Shown here in pieces: positions 2,667 to 38,871 of a DNA stretch of 38,871 nucleotides (its first letter is position 1; every line of letters starts with the position of its first letter). This DNA comes from Flavobacteriales bacterium. GTDB taxonomy: Bacteria > Bacteroidota > Bacteroidia > NS11-12g > UBA955. A model generated the notes under the pieces. The model had not been told where the DNA came from. It worked only from the letters and a program-made list of their open reading frames with translations, and did no database searches. The stretch lies in NCBI GenBank assembly GCA_947463095.1, contig CANHRE010000018.1, positions 1 to 38,871 of the forward strand, read 5' to 3'. Both the position numbers and the translations under genes were made by a program.

Positions 2667-3654
2667 AATCAGGGCGGCGATAACCGGAGTAGGGGGCTAC
2701 GTTCCGGATACCATACTTAGCAATAAAGATTTAGAAAGACTGGTAGATACAAATGATGAGTGGATCATTTCCAGAACTGGTATCCGCGAGCGCAGAATTC
2801 TAAAAGAACCCGGAAAAGCTACCAGCGATATGGCGGTAATGGCCGTGCGCGATTTGTTGTCCAAAAGAGGTTTAGAACCCGATGATATAGACCTTTTAAT
2901 TCTTTGCAGTGTTACGCCGGATATGATATTTCCGGCCAGTGCAAATCTGATTACGCATAAACTGGGTACCAGTAAACCATGGGGTTTCGATCTTGCAGCA
3001 GCCTGTTCCAGCTTTTTATACGGATTGCATGTTGGTGCTCAGTTCATTCAGGCCGGAACCCATAAACGTGTTGTCGTGGTGGGCTCCGATAAAATGAGTG
3101 CCATTGTTGATTATACCGACCGCAATACCTGCATCCTTTTTGGCGATGGTGCAGGTTGTGTGTTGTTAGAACCAAGCGAAGATGATTGCGGCATTATGGA
3201 TGCCATCCTTCGCAGTGACGGTGCCGGTGCTGAATTCCTTCGCCAGAAAGCCGGTGGAAGTCTGAATCCACCTTCTCATGAAACCATTGATGCCCGCGAG
3301 CATTTTGTTTATCAGGAAGGCAAAACGGTGTTCAAGTTCGCTACCACCAATATGGCTGATGTTTCCAGACGCATCATGGACAGAAACAACCTGAGCGCAG
3401 AGGATGTTCAGTGGCTGGTTCCTCATCAGGCAAACAAACGTATTATTGATTACACAGCTGAAATTATGGGTTTACCTGAAGAAAAGGTACTCATGAACAT
3501 AGAGCGCTACGGCAATACTACTTCAGCTACCCTTCCTTTGTTGCTTTGGGATTATGAAAAGCAATTGCGCAAAGGCGATAACCTCATCCTGGCTACCTTC
3601 GGCGGTGGTTTTACCTGGGGTAGCATGTATGTACGTTGGTCGTATAATTCTTGA
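2659..3654 (+). CDS. fabH: Beta-ketoacyl-ACP synthase III
   Basis: FabH starts fatty-acid synthesis by condensing an acyl-CoA with malonyl-ACP. The 331-residue protein has the full catalytic triad: Cys116 in AAACSSF, His256 in PHQANKRI and Asn286 in RYGNTTSA. The C-terminal GGGFTWGSMYVRW is typical. The ATG overlaps the plsX end by 8 nt (reading ATGACTAA). In many Bacteroidota accB and accC follow; here the next gene is convergent, so the cluster stops at fabH. The 24-bp gap to the convergent neighbour shows no obvious hairpin. Confidence 0.96.
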   Translation: MTKIRAAITGVGGYVPDTILSNKDLERLVDTNDEWIISRTGIRERRILKEPGKATSDMAVMAVRDLLSKRGLEPDDIDLLILCSVTPDMIFPASANLITHKLGTSKPWGFDLAAACSSFLYGLHVGAQFIQAGTHKRVVVVGSDKMSAIVDYTDRNTCILFGDGAGCVLLEPSEDDCGIMDAILRSDGAGAEFLRQKAGGSLNPPSHETIDAREHFVYQEGKTVFKFATTNMADVSRRIMDRNNLSAEDVQWLVPHQANKRIIDYTAEIMGLPEEKVLMNIERYGNTTSATLPLLLWDYEKQLRKGDNLILATFGGGFTWGSMYVRWSYNS

Positions 3655-7222: not shown

Positions 7223-7254
7223 CAAATTAACGAAGGCAAATTCGTTAAACAAAA
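7223..7254 (-). promoter_or_regulatory. Putative promoter of the small membrane protein gene
   Basis: On the minus strand TTTTG (7254-7250), 19 bp, then TTAATTTG (7230-7223) fits TTG-N17-23-TAnnTTTG with one mismatch. The box ends 4 nt before the ATG at 7218. The -33 element coincides with the T-rich tail of the efflux operon terminator. Confidence 0.5.
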
Positions 7255-13970: not shown

Positions 13971-15017
13971 TTAACAAGGGCCCTTGGGGAGGGAGAATCC
14001 AAATACACTTCCGGCACCTTCCGTACTCATCACATCAATCTGTTCACCATGTGCTTCTATAATATGCTTGACAATGGCAAGGCCAAGACCGCTTCCGCCT
14101 TTATTGCGGGATCTGCTTTTATCTACGCGGTAAAAACGTTCAAAAATGCGTCCCAGGTCTTTTTCCGGTATACCCAGGCCTGTGTCTGCCACCTCAATAC
14201 GCACCTTATTACCCATGGGCATGATTTTAAACCGACTGATGCCATTTTCTTTGCCGTATCGGATGGAGTTGGTGCCAAGATTGGTAAGCACCTGACGGAT
14301 GCGGAAGCTGTCGGCACATACTAGAACTGGTTTTCCCGGGTCTTGGAATTGCAGGCTGATGCGTTCTCTTCCTGCCTGGAATTCCAGGCTTTCTACCACC
14401 TCTCTCATCATTTCTGTGATATCGAATTCGCTGCGCTGCAGTTCTAATTCTCCGGCCTCGTATTGGGTGATGGTTTCCAGATCTGAAACGATACCTACCA
14501 AACGTTCCACATTGCGATCGGCCTTCTGCAGGAAGTTGCGGTTTACAGTTTCATCCTCCAGGCCGCCGTCAAGCAGGGTGGAAATGTAGCCTTGGATATT
14601 GAAAATGGGGGTTTTTAATTCATGTGAAACATTCCCCAGGAATTCTTTTCGATAGTCTTCCAATTGTCGCAGTCGTTCAGTTTCTGCACGGCGGTTTTCC
14701 AATATACGCTCCAGGGTACTTTCCAGCTTGGCTATTTCTGGAGCGCTGTCGGGGAGCTTCACTTCACTGTCGTTGCCTTCACGCAATTCGAGTCTGATGA
14801 GGTAGCTATGCAGTTTTCTCAGTGTAATGCCGAGGGTTCTTGTACTGATAATGGCAGCCGCCAGATAGGCAAAACCTGCCAGCAGCGTGCCTGTGTTGAT
14901 GTATTGATTTTGAAACCAGGGCTCGGCAGAAGTGCGGTGCCACAGGTAATTTACCAGCAGCAGGGTAATAACTGCTGTTATCAGGTTAAACAGGATGCGT
15001 GCACGGAAACTCACCAC
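13971..15017 (-). CDS. Sensor histidine kinase, PhoR-like, orphan
   Basis: 348-residue membrane kinase with two N-terminal TM segments (about 8-24 and 42-60), a short linker, the H-box FLGNVSHELKTPI (phospho-acceptor His132), N-box (TNLGTNSIRYG), G1 (DTGLGIPEKD), F-box (FERFYRVDKSRSR) and G2 (GSGLGLAIVKHI). All catalytic motifs are intact. There is only a tiny extracytoplasmic loop, so it may sense through the membrane. The start is GTG at 15017 or 15014; a stop lies 6 nt upstream in frame. A perfect -7 box (15019-15026) ends 4 nt before the second GTG, favouring 15014. No response regulator gene is nearby. Confidence 0.92.
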   Translation of the reverse strand: MVSFRARILFNLITAVITLLLVNYLWHRTSAEPWFQNQYINTGTLLAGFAYLAAAIISTRTLGITLRKLHSYLIRLELREGNDSEVKLPDSAPEIAKLESTLERILENRRAETERLRQLEDYRKEFLGNVSHELKTPIFNIQGYISTLLDGGLEDETVNRNFLQKADRNVERLVGIVSDLETITQYEAGELELQRSEFDITEMMREVVESLEFQAGRERISLQFQDPGKPVLVCADSFRIRQVLTNLGTNSIRYGKENGISRFKIMPMGNKVRIEVADTGLGIPEKDLGRIFERFYRVDKSRSRNKGGSGLGLAIVKHIIEAHGEQIDVMSTEGAGSVFGFSLPKGPC

Positions 15018-15018
15018 G

Positions 15019-15026
15019 CAAAGTTA
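15019..15026 (-). promoter_or_regulatory. -7 promoter box of the histidine kinase gene
   Basis: TAACTTTG on the minus strand is an exact match to TAnnTTTG. It ends 1 nt before GTG 15017 and 4 nt before GTG 15014. No convincing -33 TTG is at the usual distance. Confidence 0.55.
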
Positions 15027-19797: not shown

Positions 19798-19802
19798 CAG
19801 AA

Positions 19803-19810
19803 CAAAAATA
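19803..19810 (-). promoter_or_regulatory. -7 box of the small barrel gene
   Basis: TATTTTTG on the minus strand is an exact TAnnTTTG match ending 5 nt before the ATG at 19797. No clear -33 TTG was found; it would lie inside the divergent oxidoreductase gene. Confidence 0.5.
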
Positions 19811-19811
19811 G

Positions 19812-19819
19812 GAGATTTG
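19812..19819 (+). promoter_or_regulatory. Candidate -7 box of the FAD oxidoreductase gene
   Basis: GAGATTTG, one mismatch from TAnnTTTG, ends 5 nt before the ATG at 19825. It lies next to the opposing box of the divergent gene, so both promoters share a 27-bp intergenic region. Confidence 0.4.
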
Positions 19820-19824
19820 CAATC

Positions 19825-25944: not shown

Positions 25945-25952
25945 CGAAGATA
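25945..25952 (-). promoter_or_regulatory. Candidate -7 box of the DUF3078 gene
   Basis: TATCTTCG on the minus strand, one mismatch from TAnnTTTG, directly before the gene start. The same TTCG ending recurs upstream of DUF177 and sucC. Confidence 0.4.
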
Positions 25953-32507: not shown

Positions 32508-35363
32508 TCAAGATTTCTTTTTTACCGGTTTCAGCTCTTTTTTCAGAAAGCGCCCTGTATGGCTGTCCTTGAAGGCTGCCACATCTTCAGGCGTGCCATA
32601 CACCAGTATGTTACCGCCTCCGGAGCCGCCTTCCGGGCCCAGGTCAATCACATGGTCTGCAACCTTAATCACATCCATATTGTGTTCCACCACCAACACT
32701 GTGTTGCCGCGGTTCACCAATTCCTGAAGTACCTCGAGCAATTGCCTTATATCGTCAAAATGCAGACCCGTTGTGGGTTCATCCAGGATGTAAAAGGTTC
32801 TGCCCGTATCGCGTTTGCTCAGTTCGGTAGCCAGTTTCACGCGCTGTGCCTCGCCACCGCTCAAGGTGGTGCTGCTTTGTCCCAGCGTGATGTAACCCAA
32901 TCCAACCTGCTGCATAGTGATGATTTTGCGTTTGATCAGGGGCAGGTGCTCAAAAAAATCTACCGCCTGTTCTACACTCATCTCCAACACGTCGGTGATG
33001 CTCTTGCCTTTGTACCGCACCTCCAGTGTTTCCCGGTTGTATCGTCTGCCATGACAGGCATCACATGGCACTTCGACGTTGGGAAGGAAATTCATCTCGA
33101 TGACCTTCCTTCCGGCTCCGCCGCAGGTTTCACAACGCCCGCCTTTTACATTAAATGAAAAGCGCCCGGCCTTATAACCCCTGATTTTAGCTTCCGGCAG
33201 GTTGGCAAACAGGTTGCGTATCTCTGTGAACACCCCCACATAGGTGGCAGGATTGCTTCTGGGTGTGCGTCCTATCGGCGACTGGTCAATGCGAATGACC
33301 TTATCCACCAATTCCAGGTTTTTGAAGGATTTTACCGAAAGGTTTTTATAGTGCGTTCCGTAAATACGGTTGGACAGCAGCGGGAACAGGGTTTCGTTGA
33401 TCAGCGTGGATTTGCCGCTGCCGCTCACGCCTGTTATGGCGATGAAGCAGCCCAGCGGAAACCGCACCTGCACCGCGTTCAGGTTGTTGCCGGTGCAGCC
33501 GCTCAGCTCTATAAATTCCTTGCCGGGCTTGCGGCGTTTGGCAGGAACAGGGATTTCCATGGTTCCGGCCAGGAATTTTGCCGTAGTCGTGTCAAAGCGT
33601 GAAAAGGTTGCTAAATCTCCCTGGGCCACAATTCTTCCTCCGTGAAGGCCGGCACCCGGACCAATTTCTACCAAGTGATCGCTTTCCAGCATCATGTCGC
33701 GGTCGTGTTCTACTACCAGAACCGTGTTGCCTAAGTCGCGCAGCTCCTTGAGGCTGGCAATGAGCTTTTCATTATCTCTCTGGTGAAGGCCAATACTTGG
33801 TTCATCGAGGATATACAATACATTCGTCAGCTTAGAGCCTATTTGGGTAGCCAGGCGTATGCGCTGGGCCTCCCCACCGCTAAGAGTTCGCGCAGGGCTG
33901 TTCAGATTCAGGTAGGAGAGGCCTACCCCATAAAGGAACGATACCCGACCTTGAATTTCCTTGAGCAAGTCTGTTGCAATGATTTTCTGTCTTTCGTTCA
34001 GGTCTTCATGAACATGTTTCAGCCAGTCCAGCAGTGCCCCGATGTTCATGGATGCCAGGTCGGCAATATTCTTACCTGCCATGCGGTAGTAACGGGCTTC
34101 TTTCTTCAGCCTGCTGCCTTCACAATCGGGACAGATGGTATTGTGCATGAACAGTTCCGCCCAGGCGCGCATTTCTTCATCACTGCTCTCAAAATACTGC
34201 TCCTGCACAAAGTGAAAGACGCCCTTGAAGCTGCTTTGTACGCGTGTTTTCTTGCCGCTGTCGCTCACCTGTTCAATTGGGAAGCTGCTTTCTGTACCAT
34301 GCAGGATGGCACGCAATACCTCGCTGCTCAGACTTTCTATAGGGTCGGCAAGGCTGAACTTATAATGCCTGGACATGGCCCTGAGCTGGGTAAAGGTCCA
34401 GTTTTCCTTTATTTCGCCGAGGGGCGCCAGGCCGCCGCGGTTGATGCTTTTAGATCGGTCAGGGATGACCAGTGCTTCCGACACTTCTGATATCTCACCT
34501 AGGCCTTCACAGGTAGGACAGGCGCCATAGGGTGAGTTAAAGGAAAAGGTGTTCGGGTTGGGCTCGTCATAGCTGAGGCCGCTCACCGGGTCCATCAGGA
34601 ATTTGCTGAACAGTTGTCTGCTCTGATCGCTCATGTCGAGCACCATCATAGTTCCCTTGCCCATTTTCAGGGCCGTGCGCACCGATTCCGCCGCTCGTGC
34701 CGCAGCTGTGGCTCCTGCATCCAGGCGGTCAATAACCAGTTCGATGTCGTGGATCTTATAGCGGTCCAGCTGCATACCCGGTTTGATTTCAACCATAACC
34801 CCATCGATGCGCATACGCTGAAATCCGCGCTTATGGTATAGTTCAAAAAGCTCGCGGTAATGTCCCTTACGGCCTTTCACCAACGGAGCGAGTATGGCGA
34901 TTTTTTTGCCAAAATAACGCTGCTCTATGGCGTCAATGATTTGTGCTTCTGTGAAACGCACCATGCGCTCGCCACTTTCATAGCTGTAGGCTTCACCGGC
35001 GCGTGCAAACAGCAGGCGGAGGAAGTCATATACCTCAGTAATGGTGCCCACGGTGCTGCGCGGATTGCGGCTTACGGTTTTCTGCTCGATGCTGATGACC
35101 GGGCTCAGCCCGTTGATTTTGTCTACATCCGGGCGCTTCATATCGCCGATAAACTGCCGCGCATAAGCAGAAAAGCTGTCCAGGTAACGGCGCTGACCTT
35201 CCGCGAAGATGGTGTCGAAGGCAAGACTGGACTTCCCGCTGCCGCTCACGCCGGTAAACACAATCAGCCGGTTTCTGGGGATGCTGAGGTCCAGCGCCTT
35301 GAGGTTGTGTTCTCTGGCGCCAAACACCTCAATGGTGCCGGTATCTTCGGGAAATTCAGGCAT
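32508..35363 (-). CDS. uvrA: Excinuclease ABC subunit A
   Basis: UvrA recognises bulky DNA lesions and loads UvrB. From ATG 35363 it has 951 residues, the normal size. Two ABC modules are visible with Walker A GVSGSGKSSL and GVSGSGKSTL, signatures LSGGEAQRIRLATQIG and LSGGEAQRVKLATELS, and zinc fingers (CPTCEG/CPDCEG and CETCGGAG/CDACHG). The frame is open to 35417, but that extension starts upstream of a perfect -7 promoter box (35378-35385), so 35363 is the real start. Confidence 0.96.
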   Translation of the reverse strand: MPEFPEDTGTIEVFGAREHNLKALDLSIPRNRLIVFTGVSGSGKSSLAFDTIFAEGQRRYLDSFSAYARQFIGDMKRPDVDKINGLSPVISIEQKTVSRNPRSTVGTITEVYDFLRLLFARAGEAYSYESGERMVRFTEAQIIDAIEQRYFGKKIAILAPLVKGRKGHYRELFELYHKRGFQRMRIDGVMVEIKPGMQLDRYKIHDIELVIDRLDAGATAAARAAESVRTALKMGKGTMMVLDMSDQSRQLFSKFLMDPVSGLSYDEPNPNTFSFNSPYGACPTCEGLGEISEVSEALVIPDRSKSINRGGLAPLGEIKENWTFTQLRAMSRHYKFSLADPIESLSSEVLRAILHGTESSFPIEQVSDSGKKTRVQSSFKGVFHFVQEQYFESSDEEMRAWAELFMHNTICPDCEGSRLKKEARYYRMAGKNIADLASMNIGALLDWLKHVHEDLNERQKIIATDLLKEIQGRVSFLYGVGLSYLNLNSPARTLSGGEAQRIRLATQIGSKLTNVLYILDEPSIGLHQRDNEKLIASLKELRDLGNTVLVVEHDRDMMLESDHLVEIGPGAGLHGGRIVAQGDLATFSRFDTTTAKFLAGTMEIPVPAKRRKPGKEFIELSGCTGNNLNAVQVRFPLGCFIAITGVSGSGKSTLINETLFPLLSNRIYGTHYKNLSVKSFKNLELVDKVIRIDQSPIGRTPRSNPATYVGVFTEIRNLFANLPEAKIRGYKAGRFSFNVKGGRCETCGGAGRKVIEMNFLPNVEVPCDACHGRRYNRETLEVRYKGKSITDVLEMSVEQAVDFFEHLPLIKRKIITMQQVGLGYITLGQSSTTLSGGEAQRVKLATELSKRDTGRTFYILDEPTTGLHFDDIRQLLEVLQELVNRGNTVLVVEHNMDVIKVADHVIDLGPEGGSGGGNILVYGTPEDVAAFKDSHTGRFLKKELKPVKKKS

Positions 35364-35377
35364 GGATGGCGGGGCGG

Positions 35378-35385
35378 CAAAATTA
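35378..35385 (-). promoter_or_regulatory. -7 box of uvrA
   Basis: TAATTTTG on the minus strand is an exact TAnnTTTG match and ends 14 nt before the uvrA ATG. It excludes the longer frame as the start. No clear LexA box is recognised. Confidence 0.5.
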
Positions 35386-35523: not shown

Positions 35524-35558
35524 TTTGATTCCTGCCTTTGTATTCGTCGGTAACTTTG
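35524..35558 (+). promoter_or_regulatory. Promoter of the marC-like gene
   Basis: TTTG at 35524-35527, 23 bp, then the exact -7 box TAACTTTG at 35551-35558. The box ends 4 nt before the ATG at 35563, so the transcript should have almost no leader. Confidence 0.6.
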
Positions 35559-35562
35559 CAGC

Positions 35563-36123
35563 ATGAAACTGCATGAAGTGCTCACCGTCAGCTTCACCCT
35601 GTTTGCGGTGATTGACATGATTGGGGCCGTTCCCCTCATCATCACCCTAAAAGAGCGCATCCCGGGCATCCATGCCCTGAAGGTTACGCTGGCTTCTGCC
35701 ATCCTGATGCTCGGATTTTTGTTTGCCGGCGAGCCTTTCCTGAGGTACCTCGGTGTGGATTTACAGTCTTTCGCCATAGCCGGAAGCATAGTGATGTTCA
35801 TTCTGGGTCTGGAAATGGTGCTGGGCATCCATGTGTTCAAGCACGATCCGGATTTGAGTACTGGAAACATTGTGCCGGTGGCATTTCCCATCATTGCAGG
35901 TTCCGGAACGCTTACCACCATCATGTCTTTGAAAAGCACCTATTCCGACTTGGTTATCAGCGTAGGAATAGCATTAAATCTGATCGTAATTTTTGTGGTG
36001 GTGGGAAGCACGCGTTACATCCAACGCAATTTGGGTAAGAGCGGTCTGGAAGTGATGCGTAAGTTCTTCGGCGTTATCCTGTTGGCTATAGCGGTAAAGA
36101 TTTTCCGCGCCAGCCTTTCCTGA
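35563..36123 (+). CDS. MarC/YchE (UPF0056) family membrane protein
   Basis: 186 residues with six hydrophobic helices and family blocks FTLFAVIDMIGAVPLIITL, GLEMVLGIHVF, NIVPVAFPIIAGSGTLTTIM and VVVGSTRYIQ. MarC proteins are inner-membrane proteins related to NAAT transporters; the role in antibiotic resistance originally suggested is not established. It is divergent from uvrA and ends 15 bp before the convergent ABC ATPase. Confidence 0.9.
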   Translation: MKLHEVLTVSFTLFAVIDMIGAVPLIITLKERIPGIHALKVTLASAILMLGFLFAGEPFLRYLGVDLQSFAIAGSIVMFILGLEMVLGIHVFKHDPDLSTGNIVPVAFPIIAGSGTLTTIMSLKSTYSDLVISVGIALNLIVIFVVVGSTRYIQRNLGKSGLEVMRKFFGVILLAIAVKIFRASLS

Positions 36124-37721: not shown

Positions 37722-37729
37722 TAAAGATA
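37722..37729 (-). promoter_or_regulatory. Candidate -7 box of the fused ABC ATPase gene
   Basis: TATCTTTA on the minus strand, one mismatch from TAnnTTTG, ends 5 nt before the TTG start. Confidence 0.4.
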
Positions 37730-38730: not shown

Positions 38731-38871
38731 GACTAAAAAAATACTCATCACCGGAGCCTCGGGGCTTGTAGGTAGAAAATTAATTTCTCACTTGACAAGT
38801 CAAGGCGCTGTATGTAAGGTGCTTACTGCAAATAAAAAGCAAAAATATCAGGAACATCAATACTATTGGAA
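38729..38871 (+). CDS. TIGR01777-type NAD-dependent epimerase, 3' truncated by window edge
   Basis: Only 47 codons are visible: an N-terminal Rossmann motif (KKILITGASGLVGRKLISHL) and, after a variable basic stretch, a YYW segment as in TIGR01777 (YfcH-like) sugar-epimerase proteins. The reading frame runs off the end. The ATG shares two bases with the start codon of the divergent regulator, implying a common regulatory region. Confidence 0.72.
   Translation, partial: MTKKILITGASGLVGRKLISHLTSQGAVCKVLTANKKQKYQEHQYYW
38736..38743 (-). promoter_or_regulatory. Candidate -7 box of the MerR/B12 regulator
   Basis: TATTTTTT on the minus strand, one mismatch from TAnnTTTG, ends 5 nt before ATG 38730. 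It lies inside the first codons of the divergent epimerase gene. Weak, because the tract is A/T-rich anyway. Confidence 0.3.

Follow-up and report, generated by a model that had tools for sequence, protein, structure and literature searches.

Promoter boxes adjoining start codons point to widespread leaderless transcription in a freshwater Bacteroidota bacterium

The promoter motif TAnnTTTG was found directly before the start codons of many genes in an uncultured freshwater Bacteroidota, and leaderless or near-leaderless transcription from ordinary primary-sigma promoters is, with high probability, the best reading of this arrangement. The boxes would be ordinary Bacteroidota promoters of the sigma-ABfr type, with the -7 element TAHHTTTG at -12 to -5. 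RNA polymerase would start on the A of ATG when four nucleotides separate the box from the start codon (d = 4, d being the length of this gap in nucleotides), or a few bases earlier when d = 5-10. The mRNA would be leaderless or carry a leader of about 0-6 nt, and ribosomes would recognise the AUG at its 5' end instead of a binding region further upstream; the exact +1 position and the mode of ribosome recruitment are the parts of this reading that we infer. Judging by sequence, such placement may take up roughly half of the recognisable standard promoters in this bacterium.

Spacing of the box before start codons

The host is represented by a draft metagenome genome of 2.62 Mb. Spacings were counted in 1.197 Mb of it, made up of the window (the whole stretch of 38,871 nt that was analysed) and further stretches, and the shares given for this genome are estimates from that sample. 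Genes were called by a codon-pair model blind to the sequence upstream of the start, which gave 793 computed starts. Shares were counted on exact boxes only, and promoters may be degenerate.

Before the 793 starts, exact boxes occurred once at d = 0-3, 24 times at d = 4 and 41 times at d = 5-10 (7, 5, 16, 4, 2 and 7 at d = 5, 6, 7, 8, 9 and 10, respectively); beyond d = 10 there were about 3 per position, declining to a background of 0.56. A sequence-only reading of the window had proposed that many genes carry the box at a leaderless spacing, and had named a positional peak over the genome as the check. This check, run on the 1.197 Mb, gave a sharp peak with its onset at exactly 4 nt, and the proposal is further borne out by the depletion of boxes in operon-internal genes and by the conservation in orthologues described below. 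An empty interval at d = 0-3 is what this reading predicts, since with any nearer box transcription would begin within the start codon or past it. The sole case in this interval, at d = 1, is the histidine kinase gene of the window, in whose GTGGTG the second GTG lies at d = 4.

Among first genes, 20 had an exact box at d = 4, where column shuffles averaged 0.41 and never exceeded 3 in 500 trials; 49 had one at d = 4-10, against a shuffle average of 2.1 and a maximum of 7. Neither column-preserving nor within-sequence shuffles of the 485 upstream regions ever came near the observed count. A caller-free count (a box, N(d) and an ATG at the head of a long frame) had the same shape, again with its onset at d = 4. 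Furthermore, one-mismatch boxes at d = 4-5 preceded 19 first genes, where the background would give about 5. Exact boxes at d = 4-10 precede about 8% of all called genes; counting one-mismatch boxes as well raises this by several per cent.

The shuffles argue against chance matches of a short A/T-rich motif combined with a flexible choice of start codons, as do the comparator genomes, which lack a d = 4 peak of such strength, and the spacing conserved across orthologues of marC, the kinase and the ABC ATPase. It speaks for chance that some one-mismatch sites look accidental, that in three kinase orthologues a matching string probably belongs to the end of the regulator gene before it, and that exact motifs in the window number 17 on both strands where 25.7 would be expected, so that the raw motif is not over-represented. 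The signal in the window is the position of the boxes, not their number. Chance, to which we assign next to no probability as an overall explanation, is rejected for the genome-wide pattern and possible for single one-mismatch sites.

Two minor observations concern the spacing. Double start codons at d = 1 and d = 4 (GTGGTG at 15012-15018; ATGATG) recur genome-wide, for example TATTTTTGAATGATG in several contigs; annotation would choose the upstream codon, which should be outside the mRNA. In the sample of the own genome, spacings of 4, 7 and 10 nt were commoner than 5, 6, 8 and 9 nt, which could represent in-frame shifts of the start codon. This 3-nt periodicity was weak in pooled genomes (p about 0.02) and partly a frame effect, and the excess of d = 7 over d = 6 was absent across the family (30 genomes); the periodicity was dropped.

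Form of the box and choice of start codon

It has been reported that mapped promoters of Flavobacterium johnsoniae have a box at -12 to -5, 4-5 nt before the start, with the consensus TAHHTTTG (PMC6847099), and the box of F. psychrophilum likewise lies at -12 to -5 (PMC9723704). A box at this position would place +1 on the A of ATG at d = 4, which is where the peak was found. The boxes were selected by TAnnTTTG alone, leaving two positions free. At these positions, G occurred in only 3 of 65 and 2 of 65 boxes at d = 4-10, that is 4% against 15% in distant matches, and the boxes thus follow the sigma-ABfr element TAHHTTTG. The base after the box in the same set was C in 40 of 65 (about 63%) and never G, a signature fainter in distant matches, and a pyrimidine stood at -1 in 22 of the 24 cases at d = 4. 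Since the avoidance of G and the C after the box match the mapped motif, the near-start boxes look like primary-sigma promoters. No positional peak of TTTG or TTG was found upstream of them at the place of the -33 TTTG element in the sample of the own genome; as this element is also far less conspicuous in F. johnsoniae (PMC6847099), it was not treated as a strict criterion.

Exact boxes at d = 4-10 preceded 49 of 485 first genes and 6 of 227 operon-internal genes (p = 2.5e-4). This distribution bears on another explanation, in which the box serves translation, as an element close to the AUG that binds the ribosome or keeps the mRNA unfolded, and is not a promoter. In Bacteroidota, which have no Shine-Dalgarno sequences, the bases immediately before the start have an effect (PMC6847099), which is in keeping with such a signal; operon-internal genes, however, need translation as well, and marC is without the box whenever it lies behind an operon gene. 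The form of the box is moreover that of the mapped sigma-A motif, including the avoidance of G at the free positions, and the sharp limit at 4 nt fits a transcription start, whereas nothing would impose it on a ribosome-binding element. We consider a translation signal very unlikely.

Strong AUG preference, as expected of leaderless genes, was also found. The called near-box starts (d = 4-10) were ATG in 63 of 65 cases. Genome-wide, TAnnTTTG-N4-ATG occurred 75 times against 21 in the reversed control, and the counts at d = 4 were 21 against 25 for GTG and 12 against 34 for TTG. Leaderless genes in this bacterium would thus be almost all AUG genes, with rare exceptions. The suggestion that genes here are also translated leaderless from GTG and TTG is not supported as a general rule, there being no d = 4 excess for these codons; orthologue starts support it for two genes of the window, the kinase (GTG) and the fused ABC ATPase (TTG).

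Conservation at marC and other loci

All eight boxes originally reported in the window were recovered with the same spacings and mismatch counts, three of them exact (marC, the kinase and the small barrel gene) and five with one mismatch (Table 1).

Table 1 Box sites and associated features (box and gene positions are those of the window)
Feature	Sequence	Position	Strand	Remark
marC -7 box	TAACTTTG	35551..35558	+	exact; 4 nt to ATG 35563
marC spacer	CAGC	35559..35562	+	predicted +1 is the next base, A of ATG 35563
marC-family membrane protein gene		35563..36123	+	Pfam MarC 8e-31; predicted leaderless
marC hairpins (L031, L032, L034, L035, L037)		around 2955-2985		
Histidine kinase -7 box	TAACTTTG	15019..15026	-	exact; 4 nt to GTG 15014
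Sensor histidine kinase gene		13971..15014	-	HisKA and HATPase_c; predicted leaderless from GTG
Small barrel gene -7 box	TATTTTTG	19803..19810	-	exact; 5 nt to ATG 19797
FAD oxidoreductase (DAO domain) weak box	GAGATTTG	19812..19819	+	one mismatch; 5 nt to ATG 19825
Small membrane protein weak box	TTAATTTG	7223..7230	-	one mismatch; 4 nt to ATG 7218
Fused ABC ATPase box	TATCTTTA	37722..37729	-	one mismatch; 5 nt to TTG 37716
MerR-type regulator weak box	TATTTTTT	38736..38743	-	one mismatch; 5 nt to ATG 38730
DUF3078 gene weak box	TATCTTCG	25945..25952	-	one mismatch; 4 nt to GTG 25940
UvrA-like gene -7 box	TAATTTTG	35378..35385	-	exact; 14 nt to ATG 35363

The marC gene, whose nearest named record is a 96% identical marC in a Bacteroidetes MAG, was compared among relatives. 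In the window and in seven relatives, marC has no operon partner before it; here the box lies at exactly d = 4 in 8 of 8 cases, seven exact and one with one mismatch, and it stays there while the four spacer bases and the upstream sequence differ. Where marC is apparently directly behind a co-directional gene, an exact box at 4-10 nt was found in 0 of 11 cases (p = 1.6e-4). Several more distant relatives have boxes at about d = 8-29, corresponding to ordinary or short leaders. In the window, the UvrA-like gene (32508-35363) is divergent from marC, and the spacing of its box corresponds to a short leader.

At five non-operonic marC loci, T- or A/T-rich sequence comes after a hairpin of -9.6 to -15.5 kcal/mol. 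These terminator-like hairpins end about 16-22 nt before the marC ATG and abut the promoter box, so that a marC leader from further upstream is unlikely. They therefore bear on the view that the boxes are real but secondary, the main transcripts starting further upstream and having leaders. Alternative starts are common in bacteria, and their frequency lends this view some support, as does the location of about 43% of the exact-box promoters within 40 nt at d = 11-40. The hairpins in several marC relatives, however, leave no space for a leader, and intergenic gaps are short in many cases; we judge a secondary role of the boxes improbable, and leaderless transcription from them is the reading retained.

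The kinase orthologue of a sister species reads TAACTTTG-TACA-ATG, with its ATG aligned with GTG 15014. Six more kinase orthologues in the family (L167, L169, L170, L172, L179, L181) have the exact box at d = 4, several of them before an ATG. In three others (L182, L187, L188), TATAAATTTGAA before a GTG is probably the coding end of the preceding regulator, and these were excluded from the count. For the ABC ATPase, many orthologues retain the box 4-6 nt before the start, which may be ATG, GTG or TTG, and in two of them an exact box ends 5 nt short of a TTG that aligns with the TTG of the window. The aligned starts of orthologues thus support the choice of the kinase GTG as well as the TTG of the ABC ATPase, which was the least likely case of the sequence-only reading.

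Single one-mismatch sites are uncertain, and the weakest candidates are those of the oxidoreductase, the membrane protein, the MerR-type regulator and the DUF3078 gene. The oxidoreductase box has lost its first base, the nearly invariant T at -12, and found no confirmation in orthologues; that of the small membrane protein has lost the conserved A at -11. No comparable box was present in the nearest named orthologue of the MerR-type regulator, few orthologues having been examined, and the DUF3078 box, which lies 7 nt from an alternative start at ATG 25937, was unsupported in the one orthologue compared. The small barrel gene and the FAD oxidoreductase gene are divergent, with starts 27 nt apart (19798-19824 lies between them) and with the exact and the weak box adjoining on opposite strands. 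Because these boxes lie side by side, two RNA polymerases could hardly start there simultaneously.

Occurrence in the phylum and comparison with known systems

The use of the near-start position was expressed as the share, in excess over background, among exact-box promoters within 40 nt of the start. In the own genome, 57% of these promoters were at d = 4-10 (31% at d = 4-5), and the d = 4-10 share was 79% and 63% in two family members. A genome of the same order, a Ferruginibacter and a Roseivirga, all three with few boxes, gave about 24-30%, and the share was 6% in the Bacteroidales comparator, a Prolixibacteraceae, where the peak lay at d = 24-25. The comparator samples were small (200-400 kb), and the d = 4 peak in these genomes was weaker than in the own genome. 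The Prolixibacteraceae result agrees with the leaders measured in B. thetaiotaomicron, whose 5' UTRs have a mode of 23 nt with 3.7% below 10 nt (PMC7366714), and this agreement lends weight to the method.

Leaderless transcription from a start-codon-adjacent promoter is known elsewhere. In Deinococcus-Thermus, a -10 region adjacent to ORFs drives leaderless mRNAs (PMC12340547). The arrangement here resembles that system in the box a few bp before the start codon, the large share of genes and the discovery by box position, and differs in that the element there is TANNNT, used by a conventional sigma factor and tested with reporters, while the box here is the Bacteroidota element TAHHTTTG, identified in the sequence. 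Leaderless genes are also common in Actinobacteria such as Mycobacterium tuberculosis (PMC3898074), where many mRNAs likewise begin at the start codon, from a different promoter and in another phylum.

The boxes share their form, the avoidance of G at the free positions and the predicted distance to the start with the sigma-ABfr promoters of Bacteroides and Flavobacterium, in which, unlike here, most mapped transcripts are leadered. In F. psychrophilum 5.5% are leaderless (PMC9723704), in F. johnsoniae 87% have leaders above 10 nt (PMC6847099), and across the few cultured relatives measured, short or absent leaders amount to about 4-13%. The published view of Bacteroidota is that leaderless mRNAs are rare and cannot explain the missing Shine-Dalgarno sequences (PMC6847099, PMC9723704, PMC7366714). 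Of the 37 Bacteroidetes/Chlorobi genomes surveyed by Zheng et al. with a Pribnow-type search only, 1 had leaderless genes, and the authors noted that other boxes could escape the search (PMC3160421); such a search could miss the Bacteroidota box. Base biases led Nakagawa et al. to suspect that Bacteroidetes have leaderless mRNAs (PMC5397173), and work on gene starts assigned the FCB group to the genomes whose ribosome-binding sites are A/T-rich and non-canonical (PMC9581028). In the open-access literature searched, no report was found of a Bacteroidota lineage with a start-codon-adjacent box as its main promoter placement.

The published Bacteroidota transcript maps are those of Bacteroides and Flavobacterium, and the related lineage described here appears to use leaderless mRNAs widely. 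The replacement of leadered by leaderless initiation, and the reverse, could then be compared inside a single phylum. Start-codon annotation would be corrected as well, since a codon at d = 0-3 would lie outside the mRNA, and the result bears on expression tools and on the recruitment of mRNA by ribosomes with an occluded anti-Shine-Dalgarno. Leaderless translation might have arisen through loss of bS21, but this mechanism was rejected, as bS21 (PF01165) is present in 29 of 30 family genomes, including the own one. The 16S rRNA is absent from the own draft genome.

A d = 4 excess was found in all 30 sampled genomes of the family (2949 against 1279 in sum), with d = 6 and d = 7 smaller on average. 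That the whole environmental family has come to place the majority of its primary-sigma promoters at the start codon, leaderless initiation being the main mode for first genes, has in our judgement an even chance of being true; if so, it would contrast with a phylum whose missing Shine-Dalgarno sequences have so far been explained without leaderless mRNAs. Across the phylum the d = 4 excess varies, being near 1 in many families and strong in a few (f25, f8), which suggests repeated gains of the leaderless geometry outside the host family. At d = 4, the strong excess in f25 and f8, the former of which belongs to another class, is seen in counts of 56 against 8 (G213) and 128 against 33 (G110).
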